A model generated the notes under the pieces. The model searched no databases. It saw nothing but the letters and a program-made list of their open reading frames with translations, and was not told the DNA's origin. Source: Bacteroidota bacterium (GTDB taxonomy: Bacteria > Bacteroidota > Ignavibacteria > Kryptoniales > JAKASW01). From it: a DNA stretch of 47,481 nt. Made by a program: the position numbers and the translations under genes. Below are positions 3,633-41,395 of this stretch, piece by piece; the first letter of the stretch is position 1; every line of letters begins with the position of its first letter. Where the stretch lies: NCBI GenBank assembly GCA_021789975.1, contig JAJYIT010000033.1, positions 1 through 47,481 on the forward strand, written 5' to 3'.

Positions 3633-5945
3633 TTGCAAAGAGTAAATACTGTGATCAGGAGTTCGTTTGCGACTATTATCATCGCAGTGTCATTCCTGAT
3701 ACTACCTCACGGCGTTTGGAGAGCCGCCCAGACAAGCCAAAGTTCAGGTGCAAGAAGAGTGGTTGGGCACGTAGCGTCGGATCGCCGGATTCCTCAAACG
3801 CCCGGGGGCGAGCCGAGTACTCCTGTCAAGGTTAGGGGTCAAGATATTGAGATCTCCATCCAAAGTGACCTGCGTTTTCTCCTCGATTTTTCCGGTGAAA
3901 TGAAATCGTCTCCGGTTGATCTTGCTTCAAAACCCGGCCTCTTGTCCATGGTGAAGCTGGTTGGCTCAGGCAGGCCCGAGAAGTTCCATGTCGTCCGGGA
4001 ATCTGTATCGACTAAGATCAAGCATACGGAGTATGGTGAAGCCCGGGTCGTTTCGTTCACGGCCTTTTCTCGGGATTCGGGATTATCGGAAGAGTTCGAT
4101 TTCCTCGTTCCGGTTCGTTTTCACAATACCATTATCTGTGAGACATTCCTGAGAAACGAAGGCCGGGGTAAAATTCGGATTGCATCTTACGGACTGCTCC
4201 GCTCTCTACTGGACGCAAAGAAGTTTGGTGCCGATAGTTCGTATAAATTTTGGAGCTTCCAAGGAGGAAGCTATCCGGAAAGGTACGACTGGATATTCCC
4301 CCTCGACCGGACCTACCGGCGGGATAATTATCAGGGTATGAATGCATCCGACTACGGCGGAGGAATTCCGGTCGTGGGTTTCTGGACAAGAGAACTGGGG
4401 ATCGCTTTTTCAGTCGTTGACCAGAAACCCCGGTTGGTTTCGCTCCCGGTGAGAGTGACACGTGCCGGAGCCGTTTCGTTTTCTATAACTGATACGAACG
4501 AAATAGTGATGCAATCAGGAGATTCCACCCAGTTGGTTCGCACCGCTATCATTTTACATCATGGCGATTTCTTTAACGGCCTTAGAACCTACTCAGACCT
4601 GCTGCAGACAGAAGGGTTCCACTATCCAAAGGCACCTCCCGACGCTTTTGAACCTGAATGGTGTGCCTGGGGCTACGAACGGGATTTCAACAAAGAGCAG
4701 ATACTCAAGAGCCTGCCGACAGTGAAGAAGTTAGGCTTCGGATGGGTTACCATCGATGATGGGTGGCAAAACAACATGGGCGATTGGTATCCCAATCTTG
4801 CTAAGTTTCCGGGTGGAGAGAAAGACTTTGAAGCTTTCATCGATTCGATTCACTCTTACGGTTTGAAAGTCAGACTATGGTGGTCCCCCTTGTCGGCCCA
4901 GGATTCGACATACGGCACTGAACATTATCAATCTCGGATGCACGAGTACGGTTTCAATATTCAAAGTAAGCTGGCACTCGAACATCCGGATTGGTTTATG
5001 CTCGATAAGAACGGCAACAGGGTCAGGGTGTCGTGGTGGAACTCGTACTTGCTCTGTCCCGCGCTTTCCGCAGTCAGGCATTATTATGAAGATCTTGTTG
5101 AGAGACTCATCGTCAAGTGGAAGATCGACGGATTTAAGCTGGACGGGCAGGATTTGAATATGGTTCCGGGATGCTTTAATCCTGACCACCATCATGAAAG
5201 TCCTATTGCATCAGTCGACGCTGTACCCATATTCTTCAAGGACATTTACTCGGAAGCGACGAAGCTCAAGAAAGGATTCCTGATCCAACTCTGCCCCTGT
5301 GGTACTAATTTCTCTATTTGCAATCTCCCGTACTTAAGTCAGACCGTTGCATCAGACCCATTGTCCTCTTGGCAGGTTAGACTAAAAGGCAAGACGTTTC
5401 GAGCGCTGTATGGTAGCCAAACGGAAGCTCATAGTGGCGACCACGTTGAGCTCACAAACCACGTCTGGAACGATTCCCTGCAGACGTTTGTCGTGGACGG
5501 GGAACCGGATTTTGCTTCGACACTTGCGGTGGGCGGTGGACCAGCTTTTATGTTTACTATGCCCGGGTTCGAGCAGGCAGATTCCAGCCTGGAGCTAACC
5601 CCAATGTTGATGAAGTACTATCGAAAATGGATTGCCATTTACAACAAGGAGAGATTAAGTGAGGGTCGATACTTAAATCTTTACGACATCGCCTATTACA
5701 AGCCGGAGACTAACGTTATCAAAAGGGGGACAAGTTATTATTACTTCTTCTTTGCAAGAAGGCATTTCAGTGGTAATGTCGAATTTAGGGGATTAACGGC
5801 CCGAAAATACAAGGCCTATAATTTATATACAGGCAGATTTATCTCGAAAATCGCCGCTCGCAAACCTACTTCGAAGATCAGTTTTGATAAATACATGGTC
5901 GTTAAACTAGTCAGAGTTGGCAGACTTGCCAAAGTGCAAGGATGA
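3633..5945 (+). CDS. Clan GH-D glycoside hydrolase (GH36-like alpha-galactosidase type), exported
   Basis: A 770-residue enzyme expected to remove alpha-linked galactose or N-acetylgalactosamine. A hydrophobic N-terminus (SFATIIIAVSFLILPHG) suggests export. A beta-sandwich N-domain (about 50-320) is followed by a TIM barrel beginning EWCAWGYERDF, with the family motif GFGWVTIDDGWQ and the nucleophile motif DGFKLDGQD, where Asp504 is the likely nucleophile. Asp575 in VASDPLSSW is the candidate acid/base. A short beta C-domain ends the protein. The start is TTG at 3633, chosen because a GGAG lies 7 bases upstream; a GTG at 3651 is the alternative. The exact GH family and linkage specificity cannot be fixed by eye. 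Its position before amidohydrolase and DUF4832 genes suggests action on the same glycan. Confidence 0.75.
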   Translation: MQRVNTVIRSSFATIIIAVSFLILPHGVWRAAQTSQSSGARRVVGHVASDRRIPQTPGGEPSTPVKVRGQDIEISIQSDLRFLLDFSGEMKSSPVDLASKPGLLSMVKLVGSGRPEKFHVVRESVSTKIKHTEYGEARVVSFTAFSRDSGLSEEFDFLVPVRFHNTIICETFLRNEGRGKIRIASYGLLRSLLDAKKFGADSSYKFWSFQGGSYPERYDWIFPLDRTYRRDNYQGMNASDYGGGIPVVGFWTRELGIAFSVVDQKPRLVSLPVRVTRAGAVSFSITDTNEIVMQSGDSTQLVRTAIILHHGDFFNGLRTYSDLLQTEGFHYPKAPPDAFEPEWCAWGYERDFNKEQILKSLPTVKKLGFGWVTIDDGWQNNMGDWYPNLAKFPGGEKDFEAFIDSIHSYGLKVRLWWSPLSAQDSTYGTEHYQSRMHEYGFNIQSKLALEHPDWFMLDKNGNRVRVSWWNSYLLCPALSAVRHYYEDLVERLIVKWKIDGFKLDGQDLNMVPGCFNPDHHHESPIASVDAVPIFFKDIYSEATKLKKGFLIQLCPCGTNFSICNLPYLSQTVASDPLSSWQVRLKGKTFRALYGSQTEAHSGDHVELTNHVWNDSLQTFVVDGEPDFASTLAVGGGPAFMFTMPGFEQADSSLELTPMLMKYYRKWIAIYNKERLSEGRYLNLYDIAYYKPETNVIKRGTSYYYFFFARRHFSGNVEFRGLTARKYKAYNLYTGRFISKIAARKPTSKISFDKYMVVKLVRVGRLAKVQG

Positions 5946-5982: not shown

Positions 5983-7041
5983 ATGTTGGAAGAAGAAATG
6001 TCAGTTGCCGAAAGAAAGCCAGATACTTTACTCCTAAACGACTTTAGACCGAGGAGTATCTATAATATTCCGCAGAACACAATTTCGAAGGCGAGGTTCC
6101 CGGTTATAGACGTTCATTCCCATATTTTTGCGAATTCCGAAAAACAGTTGGATGAATGGATACGCAAGATGGACTTGGCAGGAGTTCAGCAGACGGTTGT
6201 ACTCACAATGGCTCACGGCAGGAAATTTGATGATTCGGTAAAATTCTTTTCAAAATATCGGGATAGGTTCATACTCTATTGCGGGCTCGATTTTACACGA
6301 TATGATGAACCCGGTTTCGGCCCAGGTGCGGTAAAAGAACTAAAGCGGTGTCATGAAATTGGCGCCATGGGGGTTGGCGAACTCGGTGATAAAGGAAAGG
6401 GTCTGTTCTATGATGATCCTCCTGCCTGGGGAATGCACATCGACGATTCTAGAATGGACATGATCATCGATGCATGCGCGGAGTTTCGTATGCCGATCAA
6501 CATCCATGTCGGTGAACCACAATGGTTTTATGAGCGGATGGATAACACAAACGATGGCTTGATGAATGCATATAATTGGCGATTGGATAACCAGGATGGC
6601 ATTCTGAACCTTGATCAGCATCTAGAGCATCTAGGTCGTGCACTCTCAAAACATCCTGAGACGATTTTTATCGCGTGCCACTTCGCCAATCAGGTGACTG
6701 ACCTTGAAAAACTAGGTAGAATGCTTGACCAGTATCCTAACCTTTATTCGGATATTTCTGCCAGGTATTCAGAGGTCGCTACTATCCCGAGATATACCGA
6801 AGCGTTCATTGAGCGTCACCGGGATAAACTGCTCTACGGCACAGATATGGAGATTGCAGAACACATGTACGAAACGACCTTCACGATCCTCGAAACCGGG
6901 AACGAGCATTTCTATGTGTATCACTTCGACCACATCAGGGAGTTCAATTACCATTGGCCTCTTTATGGCCTTGGGCTAAGCGACGAGACTTTAAGGAAGC
7001 TGTATTTCGACAACACAACTAAAATCCTGACCATCCGATAA
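5983..7041 (+). CDS. Amidohydrolase (Amidohydro_2-type TIM barrel), copy 1, metal site intact
   Basis: A 352-residue metal-dependent hydrolase without a signal peptide. Visible metal-site elements are H45 and H47 in IDVHSH, H175 in INIHVGEP, H233 in IACHFANQ and D288 in LLYGTDME, the usual HxH...H...H...D set of the amidohydrolase superfamily. The reaction is unknown; family members hydrolyse lactones, amides or decarboxylate aromatic acids. An AAAGG ribosome site precedes the ATG. It is followed after 8 bases by a DUF4874/DUF4832 gene, and the same pair recurs at 11055-13588. A role in processing a sugar released in this locus is inferred from context only. Confidence 0.75.
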   Translation: MLEEEMSVAERKPDTLLLNDFRPRSIYNIPQNTISKARFPVIDVHSHIFANSEKQLDEWIRKMDLAGVQQTVVLTMAHGRKFDDSVKFFSKYRDRFILYCGLDFTRYDEPGFGPGAVKELKRCHEIGAMGVGELGDKGKGLFYDDPPAWGMHIDDSRMDMIIDACAEFRMPINIHVGEPQWFYERMDNTNDGLMNAYNWRLDNQDGILNLDQHLEHLGRALSKHPETIFIACHFANQVTDLEKLGRMLDQYPNLYSDISARYSEVATIPRYTEAFIERHRDKLLYGTDMEIAEHMYETTFTILETGNEHFYVYHFDHIREFNYHWPLYGLGLSDETLRKLYFDNTTKILTIR

Positions 7042-7049
7042 TTGATCAT

Positions 7050-8480
7050 ATGAGACACTTTGCCAAGCTTTACCTCCTTGCAACAGTTTTGGCGGCCGCG
7101 ACGGCTTTCAGCCAGACAACTGTTACTTACAAACCGTCGAACGCAATTTTCCCAAACCCCGAGAGGGGATTCTTCTCATCTTTACCGCGGGAGGGAGGAC
7201 CTTCGGAGAGTCCCCCAAACTCCAGAGCTAAAACGGACAGTCTCACTCTTGCTGCCATGAAAAAGATCAGAGCTGAAGGACAATCGGTCGTGGGATTGGG
7301 ATATAACCTTGCTAAGTTCAGAGATCGGAAAATCAGTAAAGAGGAATTGCAGCGGATCAAACACGATTTCGAATTGATCCGTGAAGGAGGAATGAAGTGT
7401 CAGCTTCGGTTCGCTTACAGCGAGTCAATTGGTGAACCGGACGCTCCGCTGAATATCATACTTGAGCATATTGCTCAACTTAAGCCAATTCTTATAGCAA
7501 ATTGTGATGTGATAGCAGTTATGCAGGCTGGATTCATAGGCGCATGGGGGGAATGGCACTCTTCTACAAACGGTCTTGACAACACGGCCGACCGACGGAA
7601 GATTCTTTTCGCGGAACTGAACGCCCTGCCTAAGGTAAGAATGATACAGGTGAGGACTCCATATTATGTATGGGGGATTTTTAACAGGACCACCCCGATA
7701 ACGAGAGCCGAGGCTTTCAACGGATCGAACTATTCCAGGGTCGGCCAGCATAACGACTGCTTCCTCGCAAACCGGAATGACTATGGAACTTATGTCGACA
7801 CGACTCGCGGCGAAAATTATATTGCGAAGGACTGCCTTTATGTTCCGATGGGCGGAGAGACATGCCACGTAAGTAAATATTGTGAGCGCGGTAATGCTTT
7901 GTGCCAGATGAATCGACTCCACTGGTCTCTCCTGAACAGCTCCTGGAATCCTGCTTTGTGCCAGATTTGGGAAAAGGAAGGTTGTCTTGACGAAGTAAAA
8001 AGAAGACTGGGATACCGGTTCGAATTGCTAAGTGGTACTTATGATACCTCGCTCAGTCCAGGTAGTCCATTTCATTATACTATAAGATTAACTAACCTCG
8101 GATTTGCCTCGCTATTCAATCCGAGAGACGTGGAGATAATTCTACAAGGCAATTCTGAGGGTGACAGGTATGTAACTTCATTACCTATAGATCCGCGATT
8201 CTGGCAACCTGGAGATACGGTAGATGTTTCCGGGGAGATCGGTATTCCATCTAAGATGCCGACCGGCAAGTATTCATTGTACCTAAACATTCCGGATCCC
8301 GCTCCGCGTTTACATTTCCGCCCTGCGTATTCTATCAGGCTTGCAAACAAAGGTGTTTGGAAAAGTTCAACTGGTTATAATAGCCTCAATGCGACGGTGG
8401 ACATAGTCGGCGGGCATGCCAGTCGAGTGTACAAAGGCCGGCCAGTCTTCAGGAAACTCACCATAAACAGTGGCTTTTAA
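7050..8480 (+). CDS. Secreted DUF4874/DUF4832 protein, copy 1
   Basis: A 476-residue protein with a signal peptide (MRHFAKLYLLATVLAAATAFSQ). The middle region (about 30-310) has the look of DUF4874, a putative TIM-barrel glycosidase-like domain: YKPSNAIFPNPERGFF, QLRFAYSESIGEPDAP, MQAGFIGAWGEWHSS (possible acidic catalytic residues in GEWH). The C-terminal part (about 320-470) is the beta-rich DUF4832 domain, with RLTNLGFASLFNPRDV and DPRFWQPGDTV. Many cysteines lie at about 240-310. It is probably periplasmic or extracellular. It is about as long as its paralogue at 12161-13588 and clearly related at DNA level (for example around 8198-8225). The function is undescribed; a hydrolase acting on galactosamine-type glycans is only inferred. 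Confidence 0.7.
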   Translation: MRHFAKLYLLATVLAAATAFSQTTVTYKPSNAIFPNPERGFFSSLPREGGPSESPPNSRAKTDSLTLAAMKKIRAEGQSVVGLGYNLAKFRDRKISKEELQRIKHDFELIREGGMKCQLRFAYSESIGEPDAPLNIILEHIAQLKPILIANCDVIAVMQAGFIGAWGEWHSSTNGLDNTADRRKILFAELNALPKVRMIQVRTPYYVWGIFNRTTPITRAEAFNGSNYSRVGQHNDCFLANRNDYGTYVDTTRGENYIAKDCLYVPMGGETCHVSKYCERGNALCQMNRLHWSLLNSSWNPALCQIWEKEGCLDEVKRRLGYRFELLSGTYDTSLSPGSPFHYTIRLTNLGFASLFNPRDVEIILQGNSEGDRYVTSLPIDPRFWQPGDTVDVSGEIGIPSKMPTGKYSLYLNIPDPAPRLHFRPAYSIRLANKGVWKSSTGYNSLNATVDIVGGHASRVYKGRPVFRKLTINSGF

Positions 8481-8562
8481 CGATAAACCACTCCCGGTGT
8501 GAGGCCGCTTTCATCAGGTAACTCAACACCATTTTTTGTAGACGGTTCGGTGGACCAAAGTT

Positions 8563-8640
8563 TGGAGATGAACAAGTGCTAAGAAAACTCTTGCGGTGAT
8601 TTTTATAATCGTGCCACCCTTGACAGCCAAAAGGATTCCG
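8563..8640 (+). pseudogene. Degenerate 5' remnant of a second GH-D glycosidase gene
   Basis: The stretch from GGAGATG at 8564 to about 8640 aligns with the ribosome site and first ~22 codons of the glycosidase gene at 13666-13742 (offset 5102), with the start GTG at 8576 in place of ATG at 13678. One base is missing in the early codons and a TGA follows, so it cannot be translated. No further homology is seen downstream. The rest of 8481-8798 holds no gene I can recognise. This shows the duplicated unit was amidohydrolase + DUF4832 + glycosidase and that one glycosidase copy was lost. Confidence 0.6.
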
Positions 8641-8798
8641 TGTGCCTCGTAGAGAGCAAGTGATCTAATGCGAAGAGTTAGATGCCAATGCCGTGCATAA
8701 TTAGGACAGCGCGACTGCTTGTTTGGACGTCTGAGACGGATCGTTGGAGACGATATCGTTTCTTATTGAAGAGTCTAGAGAGGTGAGACGACCTTAGG

Positions 8799-10139
8799 AT
8801 GCCAGAAAGATTTATTATAACCAATGGAACAGTCCTCTTGCCGGAAGGGCTGAAACAAACCGATCTTGAATTGCGGGACGGTGTTATTTCCCAGATCAAT
8901 GGGAGCATTTCTCCTGACGAATCCTCCCACGTCGTAAATGCAAAAGGGGAATACGTCCTTCCCGGATTCATAGATATTCATACAAACGGGATTGCCGGTT
9001 TTGACCTAACTAACGGAATGTATGATCTGAAAAGCAAGAGCTTTCGGTTCAATCAAGAAGCCTATATGGAGGGCCTAGACCATGCCCTGAAGAGATATGC
9101 GGAGAAAGGGGTCACGCGTGCGATCTTGACAAGCGTGGCTTCACCGATCGAAGAACTAAAACAAGCCTTTGGTTTTGTGAGTGCCTACAAGAAGAAGGTT
9201 TCTGAATCAGCTTGGAAAGAAGTGCTCGGCGGCCTTTATGTTGAAGGCACGTTCATGAAACTGGCCGAATATAGTGGTGCGCATAATCCCGAATATTTTA
9301 AGGAACCATCCGAACGACTATTTGATGAACTTCAAGATGCCGCGAATGGTATTATCAAAATTGTCAATATCGTACCTGAGTGGGGGGATTCTGCTCTGAG
9401 ATTGATAGAATATTTGTCCTCTCAAGGTATCGTTTGTGCGGCGGGTCACACGGGAGCATCCGCCCTTCAATACAATAGGGCAATAAAGAGCGGGACGAGA
9501 CTCGTTGTCCATTTTCTCAACGGACCTACTGGCTCGTCTACTAAACCTTTCGGCGGGGGAGGTGCTGTGGAGAGCGTGTTACGGGCCTCTAATATGTTTG
9601 TTGAGATAATAGCTGACGGTTACCATGTCGACAAATCATATGTGCTGGACACGATCGGCAGAAAGGGATTTGACAAAGTTGTCATAGTAACCGATGGTAT
9701 GTTTGCCATAGGCTTGGACGGGATTGAGACGTTTCGAATCTTCGATGTTGACGGAAAAGTGAGTTCAAATCGGGAGTACGTGGAAGTTGCGAGCAAAATC
9801 AATACCCTGTTTGGCAGCTTGCTGACCACGGATGTCGCATTCTCAAACCTGTTGAATTGGCTGACCGTTCCGGTGGATGGTGTCTGGCGCGACATGCACC
9901 AGCCGCTCGAGTTAGAGCAGGCCTTTGTAGTGGCTTCCGCGATGTGCAGCAAGAATCCAGCGAAAGCCTTGGGAATATTTGAACCAACGTTGCTAGAGCA
10001 TAATGCAGACTTGGGACATTACTCTGGAAGTATTGAGACCGGTAAATGCGCCGACATAGTAATTGCCAAACTCGAACGAATCGACGGAAAATTTAAACTT
10101 AACATTGATAAAGTGTTTGTCAAAGGTAAGGCAATCTGA
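8799..10139 (+). CDS. N-acetylhexosamine-6-phosphate deacetylase (NagA/AgaA type)
   Basis: A 446-residue cytoplasmic deacetylase of the amidohydrolase superfamily, converting GalNAc-6-P (or GlcNAc-6-P) to the amino sugar phosphate plus acetate. Motifs: PGFIDIHTNGIAGFD, GLYVEGTF (the position of HLEGPF in canonical NagA), AAGHTGAS, HFLNGPTGS and VTDGM with catalytic Asp299. It is longer than the usual ~380 residues and its motifs depart from textbook NagA, which fits a paralogue tuned to another N-acetyl sugar. A short AGG directly precedes the ATG and AGAGGTGAG lies 13 bases away. It is followed 66 bases on by a NagB-like gene. With AgaS and the tagatose enzymes downstream, N-acetylgalactosamine-6-phosphate is the likeliest substrate. 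Confidence 0.75.
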   Translation: MPERFIITNGTVLLPEGLKQTDLELRDGVISQINGSISPDESSHVVNAKGEYVLPGFIDIHTNGIAGFDLTNGMYDLKSKSFRFNQEAYMEGLDHALKRYAEKGVTRAILTSVASPIEELKQAFGFVSAYKKKVSESAWKEVLGGLYVEGTFMKLAEYSGAHNPEYFKEPSERLFDELQDAANGIIKIVNIVPEWGDSALRLIEYLSSQGIVCAAGHTGASALQYNRAIKSGTRLVVHFLNGPTGSSTKPFGGGGAVESVLRASNMFVEIIADGYHVDKSYVLDTIGRKGFDKVVIVTDGMFAIGLDGIETFRIFDVDGKVSSNREYVEVASKINTLFGSLLTTDVAFSNLLNWLTVPVDGVWRDMHQPLELEQAFVVASAMCSKNPAKALGIFEPTLLEHNADLGHYSGSIETGKCADIVIAKLERIDGKFKLNIDKVFVKGKAI

Positions 10140-10205
10140 GAATGCTGCAGAAAACGAGCACAATACATGATATGATCTACATCATGGTGAGAAAGGAAGA
10201 GAAAG

Positions 10206-10979
10206 GTGAGCAACGCGATTTCCATTTTCAACGTTGAAAAGTTAAAGGTTAATGTCTATTCAGACCGCAGATCTACAGGAAAGCAAGCAGCGTCTGTCGT
10301 TAGGGATAGGATTGGCGGGCTTCTGTCCCATGAGGAGAATGTGCGAATAATATTTGCAGCGGGTCCTTCTCAAAATGAGTTCCTGGAAGAAATGACGTTA
10401 GTGGAGGGAATAGACTGGTCAAGGGTCGTTGCATTCCATTTGGATGAATATGTTGGTGTCAGAAAGGATTCAAAGGATTCATGGGGGAACTTTTTAAAAG
10501 AAAGGATCTTTGCCAAGTTGAATTTCAAAGAGATCCATTATTTAAATCCGGAGCCAACTGATTTAACAAAGGAATGCGAGAGGTACGCTGCTCTTATAAA
10601 AGAGGCACCCATTGATATCGTATGTCTTGGGATAGGTGAAAATTGCCATATTGCCTTCAATGATCCGGGTGTTGCAAATTTCAGCGACCCACGAGTGGTG
10701 AAAGTCGTTGATTTAGACCAGACTTGCAGACAACAACAAGTAAACGACGGTTGCTTCACATCAGTAGCAGATGTCCCCAAGCAGGCAATGACCATGACCA
10801 TTCCGCCTTTGCTATCAGCGCATTTTCTTAGCGTTGTGGTCCCAGGGCCAACCAAATCCACTGCTGTTTTTCGTACCCTAAAAGGCGAAATAAGTACCAA
10901 TTGCCCGGCGTCTATCTTGCGGCGGCATGAAGACGCCGTATTATTTCTGGATGTGGACTCCGCATCAAAAGTTCTGTAG
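10206..10979 (+). CDS. Glucosamine/galactosamine-6-phosphate deaminase-isomerase (NagB/AgaI family)
   Basis: A 257-residue soluble enzyme with NagB hallmarks: FHLDEYVG with catalytic Asp80, GIGENCHIAFNDP (canonical GxGxDGHIAFNEP), VPKQAMTMTIPPLLSA and CPASILRRH near the C-terminus. It would deaminate and isomerise a hexosamine-6-phosphate to a ketohexose-6-phosphate. The start is GTG at 10206, supported by AAGGAAGAG upstream. The substitution of D by N in GENCH and the co-occurrence of an AgaS gene suggest an AgaI-like role on galactosamine-6-phosphate, or a parallel branch for glucosamine-6-phosphate. The downstream 11-kb run of same-strand genes implies co-regulation. Confidence 0.75.
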   Translation: MSNAISIFNVEKLKVNVYSDRRSTGKQAASVVRDRIGGLLSHEENVRIIFAAGPSQNEFLEEMTLVEGIDWSRVVAFHLDEYVGVRKDSKDSWGNFLKERIFAKLNFKEIHYLNPEPTDLTKECERYAALIKEAPIDIVCLGIGENCHIAFNDPGVANFSDPRVVKVVDLDQTCRQQQVNDGCFTSVADVPKQAMTMTIPPLLSAHFLSVVVPGPTKSTAVFRTLKGEISTNCPASILRRHEDAVLFLDVDSASKVL

Positions 10980-11054
10980 GGCGACACGTGGCGTCTCTTT
11001 ACATTAAGGAGGAGTGCTACCCAGATAGCGCTTTCTTGAAAAGGAGTACGAATT

Positions 11055-12143
11055 ATGAATGAACGACATAGTTTGTTCAGCCTGATGATCCTCCTACTCC
11101 TCGCCTTTGCAACACGCACTTACGGGCAAACCACTCCGGATCATCTCCTCCTAAAAGACTACAGACCCGAAAGTATCTTTAGGATACCGAACGTGGTCGT
11201 CAAAAGTGCTAAATACAAAGCGATAGATATGGATTCCCATCCGTATGCTACTTCGCAGAAACAATTGGCGCGGTGGGTACATAATATGGATTCAACGGGC
11301 GTGAGGAGAACCATTATTCTAACAGATGCATATGGGAAGAGATTTGATTCTCTTGCGGCCTATTACTCACATTATGCGAAAAGGTTTATCCTTTTTTGTG
11401 GTTTTAATCTTACAGGCTATGATAAACCGGGTTTTGGGCCTGCGGCCGTGAAAGAGCTGAAAAGATGTTACGAAGAAGGTGCCAGGGGTGTAGGCGAGCT
11501 GATAGATAGAAGCAGTGGTTTTGTCCACTGCAATCCACCTGCTTATTGGGTACACATAGATGATCCCAGACTGGATCCATTGCTGAGCGAATGCGCAAAA
11601 CTTGGAATGCCTGTAAGTATCGGCATAGGACAACCCCAGTGGTTCTATGGACAAATGGACTCCACAAACGATGGGCTAATGAGCGCGTACGAGCATTGGT
11701 TTTCGATGGGATGGGATTTAGATCTTGAGCAGGAACTACAACATCTTGCGCATGCGCTTGCAAGCCACCCCCATAACATCTTCATCGCCTGTCATTTTGC
11801 AAATCAGATCACGGACCTTGCAGAATTGGGAAAGTTATTTGACAAGTACCCGAACATCTATGCGGATATATCCGATAGATATGCTGAGATGGCGACAATT
11901 CCCAGATATGTCAAGGCATTCATACAAAGGCATCAAGATAGGATCCTTTATGGTACAGATATGGGTTTCGGATTGGATATGTATCATATGACGTTTACAA
12001 TACTGCAAACACGGGACGAGCATTTTTATGACTTCAACTTATTCAATTATCACTGGCCACTTTACGGCCTTGGATTGATCGGAAAAACATTGAAGAGAGT
12101 ATACTGGACAAATGCGGCGAAACTCCTGAACATCGAACCCTGA
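11055..12143 (+). CDS. Exported amidohydrolase-like protein, copy 2, with two metal ligands replaced
   Basis: A 362-residue paralogue of the protein at 5983-7041, but with a signal peptide (MNERHSLFSLMILLLLAFATRTYGQ) and an AAGGAG ribosome site. The fold is conserved (LLLKDYRPESIF, GFGPAAVKELKRC, IACHFANQ, LYGTDMG), yet the first histidine of HxH is Asp60 (IDMDSH), and the barrel histidine equivalent to H175 is Gly190 (VSIGIGQPQ). H62, H247 and D302 remain. A two-metal or even a standard one-metal centre is therefore unlikely to be intact. It is either a binding or scaffold protein, or an enzyme with altered chemistry. It is coupled to a DUF4832 gene 17 bases downstream. Confidence 0.75.
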   Translation: MNERHSLFSLMILLLLAFATRTYGQTTPDHLLLKDYRPESIFRIPNVVVKSAKYKAIDMDSHPYATSQKQLARWVHNMDSTGVRRTIILTDAYGKRFDSLAAYYSHYAKRFILFCGFNLTGYDKPGFGPAAVKELKRCYEEGARGVGELIDRSSGFVHCNPPAYWVHIDDPRLDPLLSECAKLGMPVSIGIGQPQWFYGQMDSTNDGLMSAYEHWFSMGWDLDLEQELQHLAHALASHPHNIFIACHFANQITDLAELGKLFDKYPNIYADISDRYAEMATIPRYVKAFIQRHQDRILYGTDMGFGLDMYHMTFTILQTRDEHFYDFNLFNYHWPLYGLGLIGKTLKRVYWTNAAKLLNIEP

Positions 12144-12160
12144 CCTCAGGAAGGAACACA

Positions 12161-13588
12161 ATGAGCAAACTCTGCATAGGTGTTATGTTAGTGCTGTCGG
12201 CAACGGCATTTGGGCAAACAACCGTCACTTACAAATATTCAAATAAGATATTCCCGAATCCCGAGAGAGGATTGTTTACCCCGTTCCCAACGCCCGAAGA
12301 CGGTTTTATGACTCATCCTATAGCAAGTAGCAATGAAGATAGCCTAGCTATCTCTGATTTGAAGGCCATTCGAGCAAAGGGGCAAACTCTAATAGGGCTA
12401 GAGTTTCATTTGGACCACTTCAGGCATCGCAAGCTGAGTGAGGATGAGCTCGGGATAATTTCAAATGATTTCAGGCTTGTGCGGGAGGCGGGTCTTAAAT
12501 GTGTTCTTCGGTTTGCTTATAACTACGGAATAGGTGGACCGGACGCTCCCCTTAAAATAATCCTAGAACATATCTCGCAACTGAAACCTATCTTCAGGGC
12601 CAATTACGACGTTATATGTGTCATGCAGGCGGGATTTATTGGTGCATGGGGGGAATGGCACTCTTCAACAAATGGACTGGACGATGCTACTGACAGGAGA
12701 AAGGTGGTATTTGCCGAATTGAAGGCGCTGCCAAAGTCTAGAATGGTACAGGTTAGAACACCTCATTACGCGAGAGGAATATTTTGCCGAAAAACTCCTC
12801 TTTCTCGATCCGAGGCGTTTGACGGTTCCAATTTCTCTAGAGTGGGACAACATGACCAGTGCTTTCTTGCTAGTTGGAACGACTTCGGGACCTATGTCGA
12901 CACTGCCCGCGGAACCGAATATATCTCGGAAACATGCCGGTACACTCCATTCGGTGGTGAGGCTTGTCACTTGAGCCCCTTTTGCGAATGCGGAAATGCA
13001 ATCTATCAAATGGAAAGATTACATTGGTCATACATGAGTAGTACGTGGAATCCAGCTGTACTAAACTACTGGAAAACCAAAGGGTGCATGAATGAAATTG
13101 AGAGGAGGATAGGGTACAGATTCGAGCTATTGAGAGGTACTTATAGTGATTCATTGAAACCTGGAGAAGCATTTCATTTCTCTATTTCACTTACTAATGT
13201 CGGGTTTGCGGCGCTCTTCAATCCGCGAGACGTTGAGATCATTCTTCGAAACGATTCAGATGACGATAGGTATGTAGCTTCACTACCAGTTGATCCACGA
13301 TTCTGGCAACCTGGAGATACGGTAGACCTGGCAGGGCAAATCGGTATTCCATCGAACTTGCCTCCCGGGAGATATTCGTTATATCTGAATCTTCCGGACC
13401 CGGCTCCTCGTTTGCGTTTTCGGCCGGATTATTCTATAAGAATTGCAAACAAGGATGTGTGGCAATATGCAACCGGTTATAACAATCTCAATGCGACTGT
13501 GGCGATAGTTGCCTCGCATGCAGGCGGCGTCTATAAAGGCAAACTTATGTTTAGAAAACTCCCGGTGAACAGTCCACTTTCCCGTTGA
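12161..13588 (+). CDS. Secreted DUF4874/DUF4832 protein, copy 2
   Basis: A 475-residue paralogue of the protein at 7050-8480 with a short signal peptide (MSKLCIGVMLVLSATAFGQ) and AGGAAGGAACACA before the ATG. The same landmarks are present: YKYSNKIFPNPERGLF, LRFAYNYGIGGPDAP, MQAGFIGAWGEWHSS, the cysteine-rich CRYTPFGGEACHLSPFCECGN, and the C-terminal beta domain with DPRFWQPGDTVDLAGQIG. Conservation of GEWH and the cysteine cluster across both copies points to functional residues. It sits between the exported amidohydrolase-like gene and a GH-D glycosidase. A carbohydrate-active role is inferred from context; no activity is known to me. Confidence 0.7.
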   Translation: MSKLCIGVMLVLSATAFGQTTVTYKYSNKIFPNPERGLFTPFPTPEDGFMTHPIASSNEDSLAISDLKAIRAKGQTLIGLEFHLDHFRHRKLSEDELGIISNDFRLVREAGLKCVLRFAYNYGIGGPDAPLKIILEHISQLKPIFRANYDVICVMQAGFIGAWGEWHSSTNGLDDATDRRKVVFAELKALPKSRMVQVRTPHYARGIFCRKTPLSRSEAFDGSNFSRVGQHDQCFLASWNDFGTYVDTARGTEYISETCRYTPFGGEACHLSPFCECGNAIYQMERLHWSYMSSTWNPAVLNYWKTKGCMNEIERRIGYRFELLRGTYSDSLKPGEAFHFSISLTNVGFAALFNPRDVEIILRNDSDDDRYVASLPVDPRFWQPGDTVDLAGQIGIPSNLPPGRYSLYLNLPDPAPRLRFRPDYSIRIANKDVWQYATGYNNLNATVAIVASHAGGVYKGKLMFRKLPVNSPLSR

Positions 13589-13677
13589 ACCTTTTCATAT
13601 TTGGGGATGGACCCTCTAGTCGGTTCCAGGGTCACTATCCTCAAAAGTCTGATTACACAAAATCCGGAGATGCACAA

Positions 13678-16323
13678 ATGTTCAGAAAAATGCTTGCGAT
13701 CGTATTGTTAATTGCACCCTGCCTGTGGGCAAGGGATGCCACTTACTTGACAAAGCACGGCGAAACAATCACGATAGGGAATCAATACCTCGAAAGAGTC
13801 ATTAGTATCGCGCCGGATCACGTCGGCACAATGAGGATAGTCAACAGGCTTTCTGGCAGGACCTACACGGTTAGCGATGATGTATTTGGTCTAAAAGTAG
13901 TGTTCTCCGGCACTGGTCCTGTGCCGAAGGAACCGCAAACCGGAATGAACGATGTGATGTTGACGGCGAAGGACTTTCAATTTACCGGTTACCAGAAGAG
14001 TGATCTGACAGGCGGAGGAAAGAAATTGGTACTGGATTTCGCCTTCAACTGGGAAGATGCTGCACTTCGCGTTCAAGTCGATTATGTGGTATACCCCGGC
14101 CAATTCTCGTTCAGAAAGAGTGTGCAGGTATCGGATTCTTTATACGGCATTCAGTTCCTTGATCGCATTTATGTTGAATCGATGTCCATCAATCCGGCGG
14201 ATCTCTCTCGCGGCCAGTTTGGGCAGCCTGTTTTTAACCATGACATATTCATGGGCGTCGAATACCCCACCGTCGAGAACGTCGTAAAGGGGAACCATGT
14301 CATGATTGGCTATGTGGTGGGACAGGATATTACTCACAAGCCATATAAATCTCACACGGCAATCCTCGGTTCGTCGCCCTCGAATGTGAAACTTGAGCAG
14401 ACATTCATGACCTACGTCAAGAGCATAGAGGTTCTTCCTCCACATCCTTTTCTGCTTTACAATACATGGTACGATCTCCGAACTCCCCTCATGGCCAATG
14501 GCCCTGCCGGCGTCGAGAATGAGAAGAATGTCTTGAAGACAATCGATTCGTTTAAGAGACATCTCTACGATAAATACGGAATTGCTCTCAACGGATTCGT
14601 CCTTGACGGCGATGCCGGTTGGAACAATGCTAACAGCATATGGGCTATCGATTCTACAAGGTTTCCTGACGGATTTACACCTATTGTTGAAGCCTTGGAC
14701 AGCACGCACACCAAGTTGGGACTATGGTCATCACCGTTCGGCGGATATCCCCCACTTCGCGATTCCGTTGTCCATTGGGGAAAAGTACACGGATATGAAA
14801 CCACCGGACCGTTTTACAATCTGGAGGGTCCGAAATACAGAGCGAAATTCATGCAAAGAATGGATGATTATACCAGGCAATATAAAATCGGATACTTTAA
14901 ATGGGACGGCTACTTAAGCGCTTTCAACACCCCGGTTAACGGTCGCTTGCCAGGGATTTATTCGCGTGAAGAGGGGTTATCTGACTATATCAAGATTATG
15001 AAGTCGGTAAGAAGAATCAATCCAAAGATATTTTTAAACATTACGAGTGGGACATGGCTTTCACCCTGGTGGCTCAAGTACGCCAACTGCATCTGGATGC
15101 AGGGGGAAGATTATGGCTATCAAGAGAATGTTCCATCAATAAATGAACGGGATAAGGCGATATTGTATAAAGATGCAGTGCTTTGGAACGACTATCAGAA
15201 GCAGCATCTGCTGTTTCCTATCTCAGGCCTGATGACGCATGGTATTATCCGAGGGAGATACAATCTGTTGGGAGGTGTCCATGAGTCACTGGCGTCGTTC
15301 AGCGATGAAGTGATGATGTACTTCGGGAGAGGAGTAATGATGTGGGAATTGTATGTGTCACCAGATCTTCTCTCTGCCGGTGAATGGAATGCAATAGCAT
15401 CAGCCGTAAAATGGGCAGACGCTAATCAAGAAGTCCTGCAAAACAGTAAGATGGTCCTTGGCGATCCTATCGAAAGACAGGTTTACGGCTACATCCACCT
15501 GACAAAAGACAAAGGAATCTTTTTACTTAGGAACCCATATATCACAAAACAAAGGGTGAATCTCAGACTCACGGCGAACCTCGGTGACATTGACCCGACA
15601 ACAGAATATTATGTCAGGGTGATATATCCATACAATTTCATACTTTCAAAACCAGTTAAGGTCAACCAGGATTTGTCGTTTAATCTTAAAGGATACGAGG
15701 TGTTGACTGCAGAGTTGATCCCTGCAAACGATATGGACAAGAGTCTTCCCATCGGGGTGAAATTCTCTTTGGAAAATGGAAACCTTATGGTCTATGGGGA
15801 GCCCGGTCAGCGAGTCAACATAGAATCGGTGGGTAAGAAAGATTTGGGAGTTGTGCGGTTCGGCAATGCCGCGAGAAAAGTCAACTACAAAGTGAAATCT
15901 CAAGTCACGAAATCCGCCTCTGACTATGCCACTCATTTGAGTATTAATGTGCCGGCCGACTACAGGAATCCAAAGTTTGCCCTCCTCCTCGAGACAGAAG
16001 GGAAGCTGCAAGAGAGATTGCAGCCTGATTTCGTAATAAAAGTCAACGGTGTCTCAAAAACGAGCAAAGTTGTAGAAGGAGATGGCACCTGGTTTTGGGT
16101 TATAACTGATTTGGAGGATGGGCACAATTCAGTCGATTGTTCTATCAGATTCAAAGGGAAAGAGAAGGGAAAAGTGAGCTTGTGGATGACTGGTGAGCAA
16201 GAGTTGGTTGCGCATCTGATAAATGGGCCAAGAGTCCGAAACGATGAGGTCCTTCCGGCAAAACCCTATCCCCCGACCGTCCGGAAAGAAATCATTCCCA
16301 TTTCACATTATAGTATTCAATAG
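13678..16323 (+). CDS. Large exported clan GH-D glycosidase (alpha-galactosidase/alpha-N-acetylgalactosaminidase-like)
   Basis: An 881-residue enzyme. ATG 13678 is chosen over upstream in-frame options because GGAG lies 8 bases before it and a signal peptide follows directly (MFRKMLAIVLLIAPCLWA). An N-terminal beta-sandwich (about 25-270) precedes a TIM barrel with LNGFVLDGDAGWNN, LGLWSSPFGGY and the nucleophile motif IGYFKWDGY (Asp410). WMQGEDYGYQ is a candidate acid/base region. C-terminal beta domains (about 640-880) may bind carbohydrate. It is distinct from the 770-residue enzyme at 3633. The 5' end of a lost sister copy survives at 8563-8640. Given the AgaS/tagatose enzymes, alpha-GalNAc or alpha-Gal substrates are plausible; the exact family needs profile searches. 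Confidence 0.7.
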   Translation: MFRKMLAIVLLIAPCLWARDATYLTKHGETITIGNQYLERVISIAPDHVGTMRIVNRLSGRTYTVSDDVFGLKVVFSGTGPVPKEPQTGMNDVMLTAKDFQFTGYQKSDLTGGGKKLVLDFAFNWEDAALRVQVDYVVYPGQFSFRKSVQVSDSLYGIQFLDRIYVESMSINPADLSRGQFGQPVFNHDIFMGVEYPTVENVVKGNHVMIGYVVGQDITHKPYKSHTAILGSSPSNVKLEQTFMTYVKSIEVLPPHPFLLYNTWYDLRTPLMANGPAGVENEKNVLKTIDSFKRHLYDKYGIALNGFVLDGDAGWNNANSIWAIDSTRFPDGFTPIVEALDSTHTKLGLWSSPFGGYPPLRDSVVHWGKVHGYETTGPFYNLEGPKYRAKFMQRMDDYTRQYKIGYFKWDGYLSAFNTPVNGRLPGIYSREEGLSDYIKIMKSVRRINPKIFLNITSGTWLSPWWLKYANCIWMQGEDYGYQENVPSINERDKAILYKDAVLWNDYQKQHLLFPISGLMTHGIIRGRYNLLGGVHESLASFSDEVMMYFGRGVMMWELYVSPDLLSAGEWNAIASAVKWADANQEVLQNSKMVLGDPIERQVYGYIHLTKDKGIFLLRNPYITKQRVNLRLTANLGDIDPTTEYYVRVIYPYNFILSKPVKVNQDLSFNLKGYEVLTAELIPANDMDKSLPIGVKFSLENGNLMVYGEPGQRVNIESVGKKDLGVVRFGNAARKVNYKVKSQVTKSASDYATHLSINVPADYRNPKFALLLETEGKLQERLQPDFVIKVNGVSKTSKVVEGDGTWFWVITDLEDGHNSVDCSIRFKGKEKGKVSLWMTGEQELVAHLINGPRVRNDEVLPAKPYPPTVRKEIIPISHYSIQ

Positions 16324-16339: not shown

Positions 16340-16495
16340 ATGTATATTGATTGGATAACTTGGAGCATTTGGCTAACCGGGTTCTTCATATTGGTTGTGT
16401 GGATCTGGATCCCGATCAAAGAGATCAAGGCCTTGGTTAAGAAGAAGCATCAGGAGATGATGGAAGCACAGGATCAAATACGAGGGAAGAAGTGA
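16340..16495 (+). CDS. Small single-span membrane protein coupled to the SSS symporter
   Basis: A 51-residue protein beginning MYIDWITWSIWLTGFFILVV. One transmembrane helix (about 5-27) is followed by a highly charged amphipathic tail (KEIKALVKKKHQEMMEAQDQIRGKK). GGAG lies 5 bases before the ATG. Its TGA overlaps the GTG of the symporter gene, so the two are translationally coupled. Several SSS transporters have small membrane partners encoded just upstream (YhdT with PanF, YjcH with ActP), and this is a plausible analogue. I do not recognise its family. Confidence 0.6.
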   Translation: MYIDWITWSIWLTGFFILVVWIWIPIKEIKALVKKKHQEMMEAQDQIRGKK

Positions 16496-18138
16496 ATATT
16501 GCAGATTACACAATTGTCTTTCTTTTCTTAGTGGTGATGTTCGGGGTCGGATCAGTTTTTTACAAGTGGATCGGCAATTCGGATGACTTCTACGTTGCCG
16601 GAAGAAACCTGACACCGTTTATACTTGCGGCGGTTATAGCTGCAACAAACATAAATCTCTACGGCATGATTGGACAGTCCGGCGTTGCTTACAAGCACGG
16701 GATACCTATAATCTGGCAATGCTGGACAGGGAATATGGCTATGATTTTTTCGGGCCTGTTCATCATACCTATTTATAGGAGACTTCGGATACGGACCATA
16801 CCCGAGTTCCTTGAGATGAGGTATTCGCGGGGCGTTAGAACTCTGGTTGCTTTGATTTGGGTGATCAGGCTGGCTTTCTGGCTTGGAGTAATACTCTACG
16901 CGGCGGTAACTGCTGCCCGGATCGTGACCGGCTTGCATTCGTTTACCAGTCTGGCACTGATTCTGTCAGTTGTGGTGATAATATATACCATGCTCGGCGG
17001 GATGTGGTCAGTGACTTTTACAGATGTGATACAGTTCGTCTTGATGTTAGGCGGAGCCTTGGTGTTGTTGCCGCTTGCAATGAGCTTTGTAGGTTGGTGG
17101 CCCGGCTTAGTTGCAAAGCTACCGCCGGGGTCCCTCACCCTGGTTCAGCAGTCCGGGAAATACAGCTGGAAGTTCATCTTAGCCATTTTTCTCCTCGGAA
17201 TCGAATGGGCAAGCATAGACCAGGGATTATTGCAGAGAGCATTTGGCGCCCAGAATACACGAACCGTTGCAAAAGGGCTGGTTTTAGCCGGTATTATAAC
17301 AACTCCATTTGCCTTATTATGGATCCTGCCGGGGTTGGCTGGAAAGATTATCTTTCCGGCGCTGGCTAATGCCGACACCGCGGTACCTATGCTCCTGGCG
17401 CACTTTATTCCACACATCGTTTTGGGAATCATAGTGGTGGGCATGCTTTCTTCGCAGCTCTCCGCCACTTCCGGAAACCTGAATGGTATAGCCACGGTCT
17501 TTGCAAGCGATATATATGAAAACGTACTCAACCGAAAGGCAACTCAGAAGGATGTTATCCTGGTTGCCAGAATCATTACGGTGGTGGCGGGTGTCGGAAT
17601 GCTTTTGTTCGCGTACTTGGTGCCTCTCTTAGGTGGTGCTGTCAATGCTTACTTGACAATAATCGCAATCATGGACATGCCACTTTTTGTGATTACGGTG
17701 ATCTACGGCTTGTTGTGGAAGAGGGCGAATTGGCAGGGTGCAATCGCAGGATATTTGAGCGGTGCCTTGGCCGGCGTGTCATGTCAACACTTCTTTAGCC
17801 TGAACTTCAATCTCACCACTTACATATCAGCCGGGACAGCTTTACTAATTACGCCAATAGTGAGTCTTCTTACTCCCCCCAGCAACAATAATTCCGTGGA
17901 ACGCATCTGGCAAGCCAAGAGCACAAGCGAAGAGGAAGCAAAAGCCAACAACGTTTACAATATCATTCCACGAACTGTTTGGGGAAGAATTAGTTTAGTT
18001 GTCCTCTTCATAGGACTAATTGCGTTTTTGGTGGGGGTCTTTATGGGAAGCGAAGGCCTTGGATTAGCCTCCTTCATCGCGGTTGCCGGCATGGGCACAT
18101 ATTTTATCGGCGGGTTTCTAAGAACATATACGAACTAA
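16492..18138 (+). CDS. Sodium:solute symporter (SSS family)
   Basis: A 548-residue inner-membrane transporter with about 13 hydrophobic helices. Family landmarks include FYVAGRNLTPFILAAVIAATNI near the N-terminus, RTIPEFLEMRYSRGVR, and GMLSSQLSATSGNLNGIATVFASDIYENVL in the middle, the region that lines the Na+/substrate path. It would import the sugar released by the glycosidases using the sodium gradient. The start is GTG overlapping the stop of the small upstream protein; a charged loop at about 460-490 precedes the last helices. Next comes a GHMP sugar kinase 10 bases on, consistent with import of a free, unphosphorylated sugar. Confidence 0.8.
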   Translation: MNIADYTIVFLFLVVMFGVGSVFYKWIGNSDDFYVAGRNLTPFILAAVIAATNINLYGMIGQSGVAYKHGIPIIWQCWTGNMAMIFSGLFIIPIYRRLRIRTIPEFLEMRYSRGVRTLVALIWVIRLAFWLGVILYAAVTAARIVTGLHSFTSLALILSVVVIIYTMLGGMWSVTFTDVIQFVLMLGGALVLLPLAMSFVGWWPGLVAKLPPGSLTLVQQSGKYSWKFILAIFLLGIEWASIDQGLLQRAFGAQNTRTVAKGLVLAGIITTPFALLWILPGLAGKIIFPALANADTAVPMLLAHFIPHIVLGIIVVGMLSSQLSATSGNLNGIATVFASDIYENVLNRKATQKDVILVARIITVVAGVGMLLFAYLVPLLGGAVNAYLTIIAIMDMPLFVITVIYGLLWKRANWQGAIAGYLSGALAGVSCQHFFSLNFNLTTYISAGTALLITPIVSLLTPPSNNNSVERIWQAKSTSEEEAKANNVYNIIPRTVWGRISLVVLFIGLIAFLVGVFMGSEGLGLASFIAVAGMGTYFIGGFLRTYTN

Positions 18139-18148: not shown

Positions 18149-19249
18149 ATGAAAAGGTACAATAATAATATTTTGAGAGTCTCCTCACCAGGAAGGATTT
18201 GCCTCTTTGGCGAACATCAGGATTATCTTAACCTTCCCGTAATAGCATCTGCTATATCCCTGAGAATATACATAGAGGGCCATGTCAACGATCAAGGGGA
18301 TGCGGTAATACATCTACCCGATATAGATGACGAAGAGACATTTTCTCTGTCGGGGCAAATAGGCTACGAAAAAGAGAGAGACTACTTCAGAAGCTCGGTA
18401 AACGTGATGAAAAAGCACGGATATACTTTCTCACGAGGTATGGAATGCACCGTTAAAGGCGAAATCCCTATTAACGCCGGGACTTCGAGTTCCTCGGCGC
18501 TGGTGGTGACGTGGATAAATGTTCTGGCGAGAGTGAGTGACCAAGGCATCAGCTTACCTCCGGAAGTTGTTGCCGAGCATGCTTACGAGGCAGAGGTGCT
18601 CGAATTTTCTGAGCCCGGCGGCATGATGGATCACTACTCCACTGCCGTCGGCGGCATAATATTCCTTGACTCCTATCCGGAAATTTCGGTGAAGCGACTA
18701 ACTCCGGGTCTCGGGACTTTTGTACTCGGTAACTCAGGCGAGCCGAAAGACACAAAGCTTATTTTAGCTCGCGTGAAGAATCAAATTCAGCGAGTGGTAA
18801 AGGAGCTGCAGGAAACATATCCTGATTTCTCTTTGAGGACAGTGGGTGAAAGTGAGATCGACGAATATGCTGGCAAACTGAAAAATGAACAGGTTGAACT
18901 ACTTCATGGTACGGTGCGAAACCGAGATATCACATGGAATGCCCTTGATGTGCTCAGCCGGCCTAACGTGGACCGAACGCGGGTCGGTGAATTGATAAAT
19001 GAGCATCACAAGGTGCTGCGCGATACCCTGGAGATTTCCACGCCGAAGATCGACCGGATGATTGCTGCATCGTTGGAAGCCGGAGCCTACGGAGGCAAGA
19101 TAAATGGTTCAGGCGGCGGTGGTTGCATGTTCGCTTACGCTCCTGAGAATCCCTTAAAAGTCAAAGAGGCGATCGAAAAAGAGGGAGGCGAAGCATATAT
19201 AGTCAACGTAGCCGAAGGAACCCGTTCGGAAGTACTGGAGGCAGTGTGA
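18149..19249 (+). CDS. Galactokinase-like GHMP sugar kinase
   Basis: A 366-residue GHMP kinase. SPGRICLFGEHQDY (residues 13-26) matches the galactokinase signature, with Gln in place of the usual Thr in GEHTDY. PINAGTSSSSALVV is the ATP-binding motif 2, and KINGSGGGGCMFAY is motif 3. It would phosphorylate the C1 hydroxyl of galactose, GalNAc or a related sugar. The stop overlaps the GTG of the nucleotidyltransferase gene, so sugar-1-phosphate formation and nucleotide transfer are coupled. The altered GEHQDY and the locus content leave the true substrate open. Confidence 0.75.
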   Translation: MKRYNNNILRVSSPGRICLFGEHQDYLNLPVIASAISLRIYIEGHVNDQGDAVIHLPDIDDEETFSLSGQIGYEKERDYFRSSVNVMKKHGYTFSRGMECTVKGEIPINAGTSSSSALVVTWINVLARVSDQGISLPPEVVAEHAYEAEVLEFSEPGGMMDHYSTAVGGIIFLDSYPEISVKRLTPGLGTFVLGNSGEPKDTKLILARVKNQIQRVVKELQETYPDFSLRTVGESEIDEYAGKLKNEQVELLHGTVRNRDITWNALDVLSRPNVDRTRVGELINEHHKVLRDTLEISTPKIDRMIAASLEAGAYGGKINGSGGGGCMFAYAPENPLKVKEAIEKEGGEAYIVNVAEGTRSEVLEAV

Positions 19250-20133
19250 CAAGCCAGGGAAAGTTAGTCATACTTGCCGGAGGAATATCATCGAGAATGA
19301 AGCGTTCCACATCTAAAGAAATTTTGCCGGATGAAGCTCTTGCCCGTGACGCGGATGAGAAGGCAAAAGCTATGATCGGAGTAGGAGGAAATCATCGACC
19401 TTTCCTCGATTATTTGTTATACAATGCCAAACAGGCAGGATATGGGGATATCCTGATTGTAATTGGTGAGCGTGATGAAAGTATCCGCACTTACTATGGC
19501 AAAATGGATCGCGACAATGAATTTTTCGGTTTGAGAATTTCTTATGCGATCCAGAAAATTCCGCCGGGAAGACAGAAGCCGCTCGGTACGGCAGACGCCT
19601 TGTACCACGGACTTTCATCGATACCGGAGTGGAAAGCAACTTGTTTCACTGTCTGCAACAGTGACAATCTGTACTCCGTCAAAGCATTGCGGTTGATGCT
19701 TGAAAACAAGTACGATAATGCAATGGTCGATTATGATCACCGGTCTCTCGTGTTGCCTCAATTTGGATCCAGCAGAATTGAAAAATTTGCCGTAACTTTC
19801 AAGGACATGGAGGGCTTCATAACGAAAATCGTTGAAAAACCCCTGAAAAAAGACATTGAAGTTGCCAGAGGGCAGGACGGTTTTATCGGTGTCAGCATGA
19901 ACATCTTCGGACTAAACTAGGATGCAATCTATCCTTTCCTGGAACGTGTGCCTTTGAACCCGGTAAGACAGGAAAAGGAGCTTCCAGATGCTATGAACAT
20001 GATGGTGCGTGAGCATCCTAAGTCTCTCTTTGCGTATCCGCTCTCTGAGCATGTGCCCGATTTGACGGACAAGAGGGATATTTTGCCCGTCAAGAAGTAC
20101 TTGGAGGAAAGCTATGGCGAAATCAAATTCTAG
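19246..20133 (+). pseudogene. Sugar-1-phosphate nucleotidyltransferase interrupted by an in-frame amber codon
   Basis: The first 224 codons encode the nucleotidyltransferase fold: KLVILAGGISSRMKRSTSKE (nucleotide-binding loop), PLGTADALYHGLSS, CNSDNLY (metal-binding Asp) and FITKIVEKP. At 19918-19920 a TAG interrupts the frame; reading on in the same frame gives DAIYPFLERVPLNPVRQEKEL...LPVKKYLEESYGEIKF to a TAA at 20131, the expected C-terminal part (295 codons in all). One point change, for example TAC or CAG to TAG, explains it. The start is GTG overlapping the kinase stop. The last 20 bases overlap the ROK gene. The truncated protein keeps the catalytic core, so partial function or read-through is possible. 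Confidence 0.7.
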
Positions 20134-29284: not shown

Positions 29285-29374
29285 TTTCTAATCTCCTTTC
29301 AGAATGTGATTTGATTTGTCGGTTAAGTCGCAAAAGCGGCAGGGAAGTTCGCGGCCGCTTTATCTCCTGTTGTC

Positions 29375-29695: not shown

Positions 29696-29710
29696 ATCAA
29701 ATTTCTCCTT

Positions 29711-34674: not shown

Positions 34675-34696
34675 GACTTTATCCTTTGTTTCGTCA

Positions 34697-41392: not shown

Positions 41393-41395
41393 CCA

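Follow-up and report, generated by a model that had tools for sequence, protein, structure and literature searches.

The steps by which bacteria use N-acetylgalactosamine (GalNAc) have been reviewed (PMC12118421), and several proteins related to galactosamine (GalN)-containing polymers have been described. The DUF4832 protein SIR_1591 has glycosidase activity and breaks up Pel aggregates (PMC12345266), the structure 5c5g is assigned to glycoside hydrolase (GH) family GH135 (Sph3) (PMC12054363), and Acidithiobacillus thiooxidans is reported as a Pel producer (PMC5852609). Here we analyse a 47,481-nucleotide contig (JAJYIT010000033.1, hereafter the window) of the Bacteroidota bacterium genome GCA_021789975.1 (Ignavibacteria, Kryptoniales), a bin of 85 contigs that is 98% complete. 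The window carries two modules, each consisting of an amidohydrolase gene (amd1, amd2) and a gene for a DUF4874-DUF4832 protein (duf1, duf2); the first is followed by the relic of a glycosidase gene, and the second by an intact one, gh881. The region probably forms a mosaic locus that breaks down an alpha-linked GalNAc/GalN polymer, with one glycosidase lost and with specialised amidohydrolase paralogues.

The two modules and the glycosidase relic

The original prediction held that the gene pair at 5983-8480 is present again at 11055-13588, and that the first copy is followed by the remains of a glycosidase gene. Both pairs of open reading frames (5983-7041 and 7050-8480; 11055-12143 and 12161-13588) were confirmed, with nagA and nagB lying between the modules; amd1 and amd2 are 53% identical in amino acid sequence, and duf1 and duf2 64%. 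Two related loci are used for comparison, namely contig C299 of G005, a genome of another species of the same genus, and contig C1 (11.8 kb) of the same bin. The upstream part of the locus comprises the following features:

1996..3504, + strand: secreted protein with fn3 and type IX C-terminal sorting domains, upstream part of the locus (Pfam)
3633..5945, + strand: melibiase-like (GH36-clan) glycosidase (Pfam E=6e-12; 71% amino acid identity to the G005 gene)
5983..7041, + strand: amd1, Amidohydro_2 protein with no signal peptide and a full metal-site motif set (HSH, IHVGEP, CHF, GTD; Pfam and motif comparison)
7050..8480, + strand: duf1, secreted DUF4874-DUF4832 protein, predicted glycosidase (Pfam E=6e-62 / 1.4e-43; invariant Glu pair)
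8481..8601, + strand: spacer and relic of a glycosidase start, counterpart of the C1/G005 duf-glycosidase junction (score 35 vs shuffles 10.2 +/- 1.5)
8556..8620, + strand: relic of the ribosome site and first codons, counterpart of the glycosidase start at 13678 (GTG 8576, in-frame TGA 8597; alignment)
8799..10139, + strand: nagA-like N-acetylhexosamine-6-phosphate deacetylase (TIGR00221 E=3e-46, below cut-off)
10206..10979, + strand: nagB/agaI-like sugar-6-phosphate isomerase (PF01182; NCBIfam PRK00443 E=7e-39, below cut-off)
11055..12143, + strand: amd2, secreted amidohydrolase homologue with two metal-site His lost (DSH, IGIGQP; motifs and tree)
12161..13588, + strand: duf2, second DUF4874-DUF4832 protein (Pfam E=3e-61)
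13678..16323, + strand: gh881, intact secreted glycosidase, GH36-like, with the invariant YFKWDG nucleophile motif (profile match, alignment)

The relic proved genuine. Alignment of 8556-8620 with 13657-13720 gives a local score of 37, and none of 2000 dinucleotide shuffles reaches this score (mean 17.0, standard deviation 2.2, best 32), which rules out a chance alignment; the reverse strand gave no match. The relic retains a GGAG ribosome site and the GTG start at 8576; after these the frame slips by one base, and a TGA occurs at 8597. The longer segment 8481-8601 is similar to the duf-to-glycosidase spacer and glycosidase start of C1 and G005, while the gh881 start aligns with the relic region over a shorter stretch with a score of 25.5. 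The true start of gh881 is the ATG at 13678, not 13585. Beyond 8641 no match to the remainder of the glycosidase was found (8641-8798 searched), nor did 8601-8798 match the sequence upstream of nagA in the genome G003. The regions upstream of the amidohydrolase genes gave no alignment, hence the outer breakpoints of the repeat could not be placed.

Related loci and history of the modules

In G005 the genes of C299 are arranged in the order secreted protein, melibiase-like gene, amidohydrolase, DUF4832, glycosidase and SSF symporter, with the glycosidase intact. Its amidohydrolase is 79% identical to amd1 and its DUF4832 protein 75% identical to duf1, and the melibiase-like gene precedes the counterpart of the first copy as it does in the window. 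Contig C1, which represents a third copy of the module in the bin, encodes an amidohydrolase (cut), a DUF4832 protein, an 878-residue glycosidase, an SSF symporter, a kinase, a nucleotidyltransferase, and ROK, SIS and GatZ proteins; the amidohydrolase is 5'-truncated near the contig end, with homology only from about residue 113. Since the relic occupies the place where, in both loci, a spacer that can be recognised leads into an intact glycosidase gene, the loss after the first copy appears to be real. A duplication unit that ended inside the glycosidase, leaving the first copy with only the gene start and nothing to lose later, would account for the survival of the start alone and for the lack of a glycosidase match after 8641. 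However, G005 and C1 have a complete gene after a similar spacer at the counterpart position, which implies that the ancestral copy was complete, and we consider such a partial duplication improbable.

In a tree of 28 amidohydrolases, amd1 groups with the C299 and C1 proteins (support 100/100), and amd2 groups with five others in a six-member clade that has lost metal ligands (99/99). Forcing amd1 and amd2 to be sisters is 150 log-likelihood units worse (approximately unbiased test, p-AU 2e-52), which rules out a recent duplication of the amidohydrolases. In the tree of DUF4832 proteins, duf1 is placed with the C1 and G005 proteins at 81/93; a sister relation of duf1 and duf2 is absent from the best tree but is not rejected (p 0.13). 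The three-gene duplication within the lineage that had been predicted therefore does not hold for the amidohydrolases, whose clades are older than the species, and is not rejected for the DUF4832 genes. A tandem duplication of all three genes, after which the copies diverged rapidly and one glycosidase was lost, would explain the repeated gene order and the match of the relic to the gh881 start too, and agrees with the p value for the duf genes, but to reconcile it with the amidohydrolase tree would require gene conversion between the copies. It is also at odds with the identity of amd1, which is 79% to its G005 counterpart as against 53-56% to amd2, with the longer relic alignment to the C1/G005 junction, and with the upstream melibiase-like gene, which travels with the first copy in G005; such a history is very unlikely. 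The three glycosidase starts (relic, gh881 and C1/G005) differ from one another in identity by about the same amount, so that the tree evidence weighs more for the history. We conclude that the copies are best regarded as out-paralogues united in one mosaic locus, with one glycosidase truly lost.

C1 and C299 share 97-98% DNA identity over 6 kb, except for the first few hundred bases of C1, whereas the rpoB genes of this genome and G005 are 79% identical (21% different). Given these values, C1 appears to be either mis-binned or recently transferred; the conclusions on the history of the modules hold whether or not it belongs to this genome. Transfer between these species is plausible because parts of the window, 29371-35790 and 38622-47357, are 95% and 92% identical to the genome G010, yet rpoB is only 76.5% identical. 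These values suggest that species of the genus have exchanged DNA recently.

Divergence of the amidohydrolases

Both amd1 and amd2 are members of the Amidohydro_2 family in Pfam. The amd1 protein has the set typical of metal-dependent hydrolases, that is HxH, the beta-5 His, the beta-6 His and the beta-8 Asp, and its fold model best matches the ACMSD/LigJ group (predicted local distance difference test, pLDDT, 60; fold class only). From knowledge of ACMSD-like enzymes, we take the HxH and beta-5 His positions to be metal ligands. In amd2 the first His of HxH is replaced by Asp and the beta-5 His by Gly, with the family match kept. All homologues not in the amd2 clade keep HxH and the beta-5 His wherever they cover the site; within the clade, HxH is replaced by DSH, DSR, YST, YSQ or AAR, and the beta-5 motif reads IGI, ISI or IRI. 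The complete members of this clade have signal-peptide-like N-termini and open frames, while amd1 and its G005 counterpart have no signal peptide. The ratio of nonsynonymous to synonymous substitution rates (dN/dS) is 0.146 between the amd2-clade genes of G003 and G010 (dS 0.6, unsaturated) and about 0.10 between amd2 and C82a (dS near saturation). The open frame and these ratios (0.10-0.15) rule out amd2 as a decaying pseudogene.

Motifs, localisation and selection together point to a split, new here, of the amidohydrolases into a clade that lacks a signal peptide and whose metal site is intact (amd1), and a secreted ligand-loss clade under purifying selection (amd2). The amd2 protein is probably a secreted pseudoenzyme with a binding or scaffold function. 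It is rather unlikely that members of its clade are still enzymes operating via a reduced metal site made of the remaining His and Asp: the CH and GTD catalytic-type motifs are kept in amd2 and purifying selection is strong, but the first His of HxH and the beta-5 His have been lost in several forms, and two members also lack the Asp or the last His. For the family, the most likely reaction is the removal of an acyl group from an amino sugar or oligosaccharide.

On contig C82 of this genome (L033 9711-12025), two tandem amidohydrolase genes, one with an intact and one with a degraded site, overlap by four bases near genes for a TonB receptor and Spherulin4 proteins. The overlap of an intact and a ligand-loss gene is a hint that their products may act jointly.

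DUF4874-DUF4832 proteins and the glycosidase

In duf1 and duf2 both PF16173 and PF16116 exceed the Pfam cut-offs (148-210 bits vs cut-offs about 30), and the residues E165 and E267 are invariant in 10 relatives. Linkage of amidohydrolase and DUF4832 genes recurs elsewhere (G005, G183 and G228), as had been anticipated; outside the genus the two are about 6 kb (G183) or about 7 kb (G228) apart, and the families co-occur in 2 in 8 genomes vs 15/394 (P 0.033). The suggestion that the pair acts as a unit is weakened because the copies differ in localisation and in their metal site, and because the genes are also found apart: G003 and G010 have the order melibiase-DUF4832-GNAT-glycosidase with no amidohydrolase between, and many amidohydrolases occur without DUF4832. 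Neighbouring amidohydrolase and melibiase-like genes recur at least as widely (window, G005, WY4, G343, G183 and G424). On this genomic evidence, the amidohydrolase-DUF pair is not an obligate unit. The GNAT acetyltransferase gene of G010 and G003 (310 aa; L034 6573-7505, L035 2209-3141), which takes the position between DUF4832 and the glycosidase, was identified by Pfam for the G010 copy and by size and position for the G003 copy.

The gh881 protein has a weak profile match to the catalytic barrel region of the GH36 structure 3mi6 (E=2e-4), and no Pfam or NCBIfam match that would indicate a full-length GH36 protein. The motif YFKWDG, a nucleophile motif of the KxD type, is invariant among its relatives, in agreement with a GH-D barrel. 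The weak profile match suggests that gh881 may be GH36-like.

GalNAc pathway and predicted substrate

Downstream of gh881 the window encodes a transporter, sugar kinases and further catabolic enzymes:

16492..18138, + strand: SSF sodium:solute symporter (Pfam)
18149..19249, + strand: GHMP (galactokinase-like) sugar kinase (family match)
19246..19920, + strand: nucleotidyltransferase (family match)
20114..21355, + strand: ROK regulator with helix-turn-helix (family match)
21505..22677, + strand: SIS protein, AgaS-like (family match)
22684..24000, + strand: GatZ/KbaZ-like tagatose-bisphosphate aldolase subunit (PF08013 E=4e-174)
24000..24530, + strand: EamA transporter (family match)
24915..25868, + strand: PfkB kinase, probable tagatose-6-phosphate kinase (family match)
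25865..26704, + strand: class II aldolase, GatY/KbaY-like (family match)

By family, one cluster thus contains the deacetylase, deaminase/isomerase, tagatose-6-phosphate kinase and tagatose-bisphosphate aldolase of the Aga type, a gene set as expected for GalNAc use via GalN-6-phosphate, tagatose-6-phosphate and tagatose-1,6-bisphosphate. Similar sets occur in G027, from another family of the same class (sis-gatZ-eamA-pfkB-fba-DUF4832), and in G228, from another class of the phylum, where mel, fba, pfkB, sis, two DUF4832 genes, eamA and an amidohydrolase gene lie within about 30 kb (mel-fba-pfkB-sis-DUF4832 ... DUF4832-eamA ... amd). GalNAc-pathway genes are also found beside close relatives of the amidohydrolases in the G343, G424, DBS2 and WY4 bins. 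No SusC-like TonB receptor was found among the window proteins scanned; such receptors are present in the related loci of C82 and G027.

Spherulin4 proteins, which match 5c5g (E=7e-7), are present in exactly the 4 of 13 genomes of the genus that have DUF4874 (chance 0.0014 if independent, a significance inflated by shared ancestry). Their genes are found close to those for amidohydrolases on C82 (this genome) and on contig C2 of G005, as well as in G010 and WY4. A galactosamine polymer had been guessed as the substrate, and this guess is now well supported. Because of the GalNAc gene set, the co-occurrence of Spherulin4 and the action of SIR_1591 on Pel, the likeliest substrate would be a Pel-type or galactosaminogalactan (GAG)-type polymer of alpha-1,4-linked GalNAc/GalN. 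Judging by the sample codes, the source sites may be acidic mine waters. Degradation of another alpha-galactoside- or hexosamine-containing glycan (e.g. mucin-type or glycoprotein) rather than a Pel/GAG homopolymer would be compatible with the many GalNAc sources served by GH36-clan enzymes and the Aga pathway (PMC12118421) and with the presence of DUF4832 proteins in loci without the pathway. The co-occurrence of Spherulin4/GH135 and DUF4832 in the genus, and the fact that SIR_1591 is the sole tested DUF4832 enzyme found, make this alternative unlikely.

Related loci also contain proteins of about 700 residues with no Pfam match (L049 8051-10153, L051 18948-21023), which are candidate polymer enzymes. 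In two distant Bacteroidota, genes for a flavin amine oxidoreductase and cytochrome c occur in related loci (L075 4241-6472, L078 4723-6930), possibly for amino sugar oxidation. Elsewhere in the window, the genes at 37110-44524 resemble a type III restriction system; they encode a DNA methylase, an AAA/DUF4143 protein and a ResIII-like protein.

Proposed function of the locus

In the proposed scheme, the polymer would be cut by secreted DUF4832 proteins and by Spherulin4/GH135 enzymes whose genes lie elsewhere in the genome; GH36-clan glycosidases would free monomers, and the SSF symporter would take them up. Conversion of the monomers to triose phosphates would then fall to the kinase, NagA, the AgaS-like SIS protein, PfkB and the GatZ/class II aldolase pair. 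The melibiase-like gene, amd1, duf1 and the relic would make up a first module, the 5' half of an older locus which in the sister species continues into an intact glycosidase and the SSF gene; in this genome the glycosidase would have been deleted to its start, and is followed by nagA, nagB and the paralogous module of amd2, duf2 and gh881. Specialisation of the paralogues would have left amd1 cytoplasmic with a full metal site, and amd2 exported with two metal-site His lost. A more specific reading, in which the locus is dedicated to feeding on Pel/GAG and the pseudoenzyme clade is kept by selection to act with the active paralogue, e.g. as a polymer-binding or regulatory partner, is tentative and clearly less likely than the broader one.

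Several observations weigh against the mosaic catabolic locus proposed here. In the phylum sample, GalNAc genes are missing from most DUF4874 loci, and C1 may be foreign to this genome. Sequence searches of the PDB found no relative of either the DUF4874-DUF4832 proteins or the amidohydrolases, and the duf2 model, built from three sequences, is too poor (pLDDT 46) for fold comparison. SIR_1591 is likened to duf1 and duf2 by domain, not by direct alignment.

If the substrate assignment is correct, these Bacteroidota feed on the matrix polymer that makes the biofilms of other bacteria and of fungi cohere, and the two DUF4832, two GH36-clan and Spherulin4 proteins are new biofilm-dispersing candidates. 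The amidohydrolase split also shows neatly how a paralogue can lose some of its metal ligands and yet remain secreted and under selection.

Comparison with known systems

A locus for both uptake and full catabolism of Pel/GAG was not met in a limited literature search; within that search, the components are of known kinds, and their combination in a Pel/GAG-type locus with a split amidohydrolase family appears undescribed. The amd1 model shares its fold and the HxH / His / His / Asp set with Amidohydro_2 enzymes (ACMSD, LigJ and the 2f6k fold group), but the amd proteins have no close sequence relative in the PDB and the amd2 clade is without two metal-site His. Like the GH36 alpha-galactosidases (3mi6, 2xn0), gh881 has an invariant KWD motif and a profile covering the catalytic barrel, although it belongs to no Pfam family. 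The endo-alpha-1,4-N-acetylgalactosaminidases of GH135 (Sph3/Spherulin4) have relatives in the same genomes or loci (C82, G010, G005 and WY4), several with type IX secretion tails, but not inside the window. SIR_1591 of the Streptococcus intermedius pel operon (PMC12345266) shares the DUF4832 domain with duf1 and duf2 and is a secreted or surface glycosidase acting on GalNAc-rich Pel; it belongs to a polymer-producing operon, whereas duf1 and duf2 lie in a catabolic locus. The Aga/Nag pathway (PMC12118421) has NagA, AgaS-like SIS, PfkB, GatZ/KbaZ and class II aldolase in common with the window, and, as in Shewanella, a permease outside the phosphotransferase system is combined with a kinase. 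The window differs in that the permease is of the SSF family, an extra GHMP kinase and a nucleotidyltransferase are present, and polymer-cutting enzymes are attached to the pathway.

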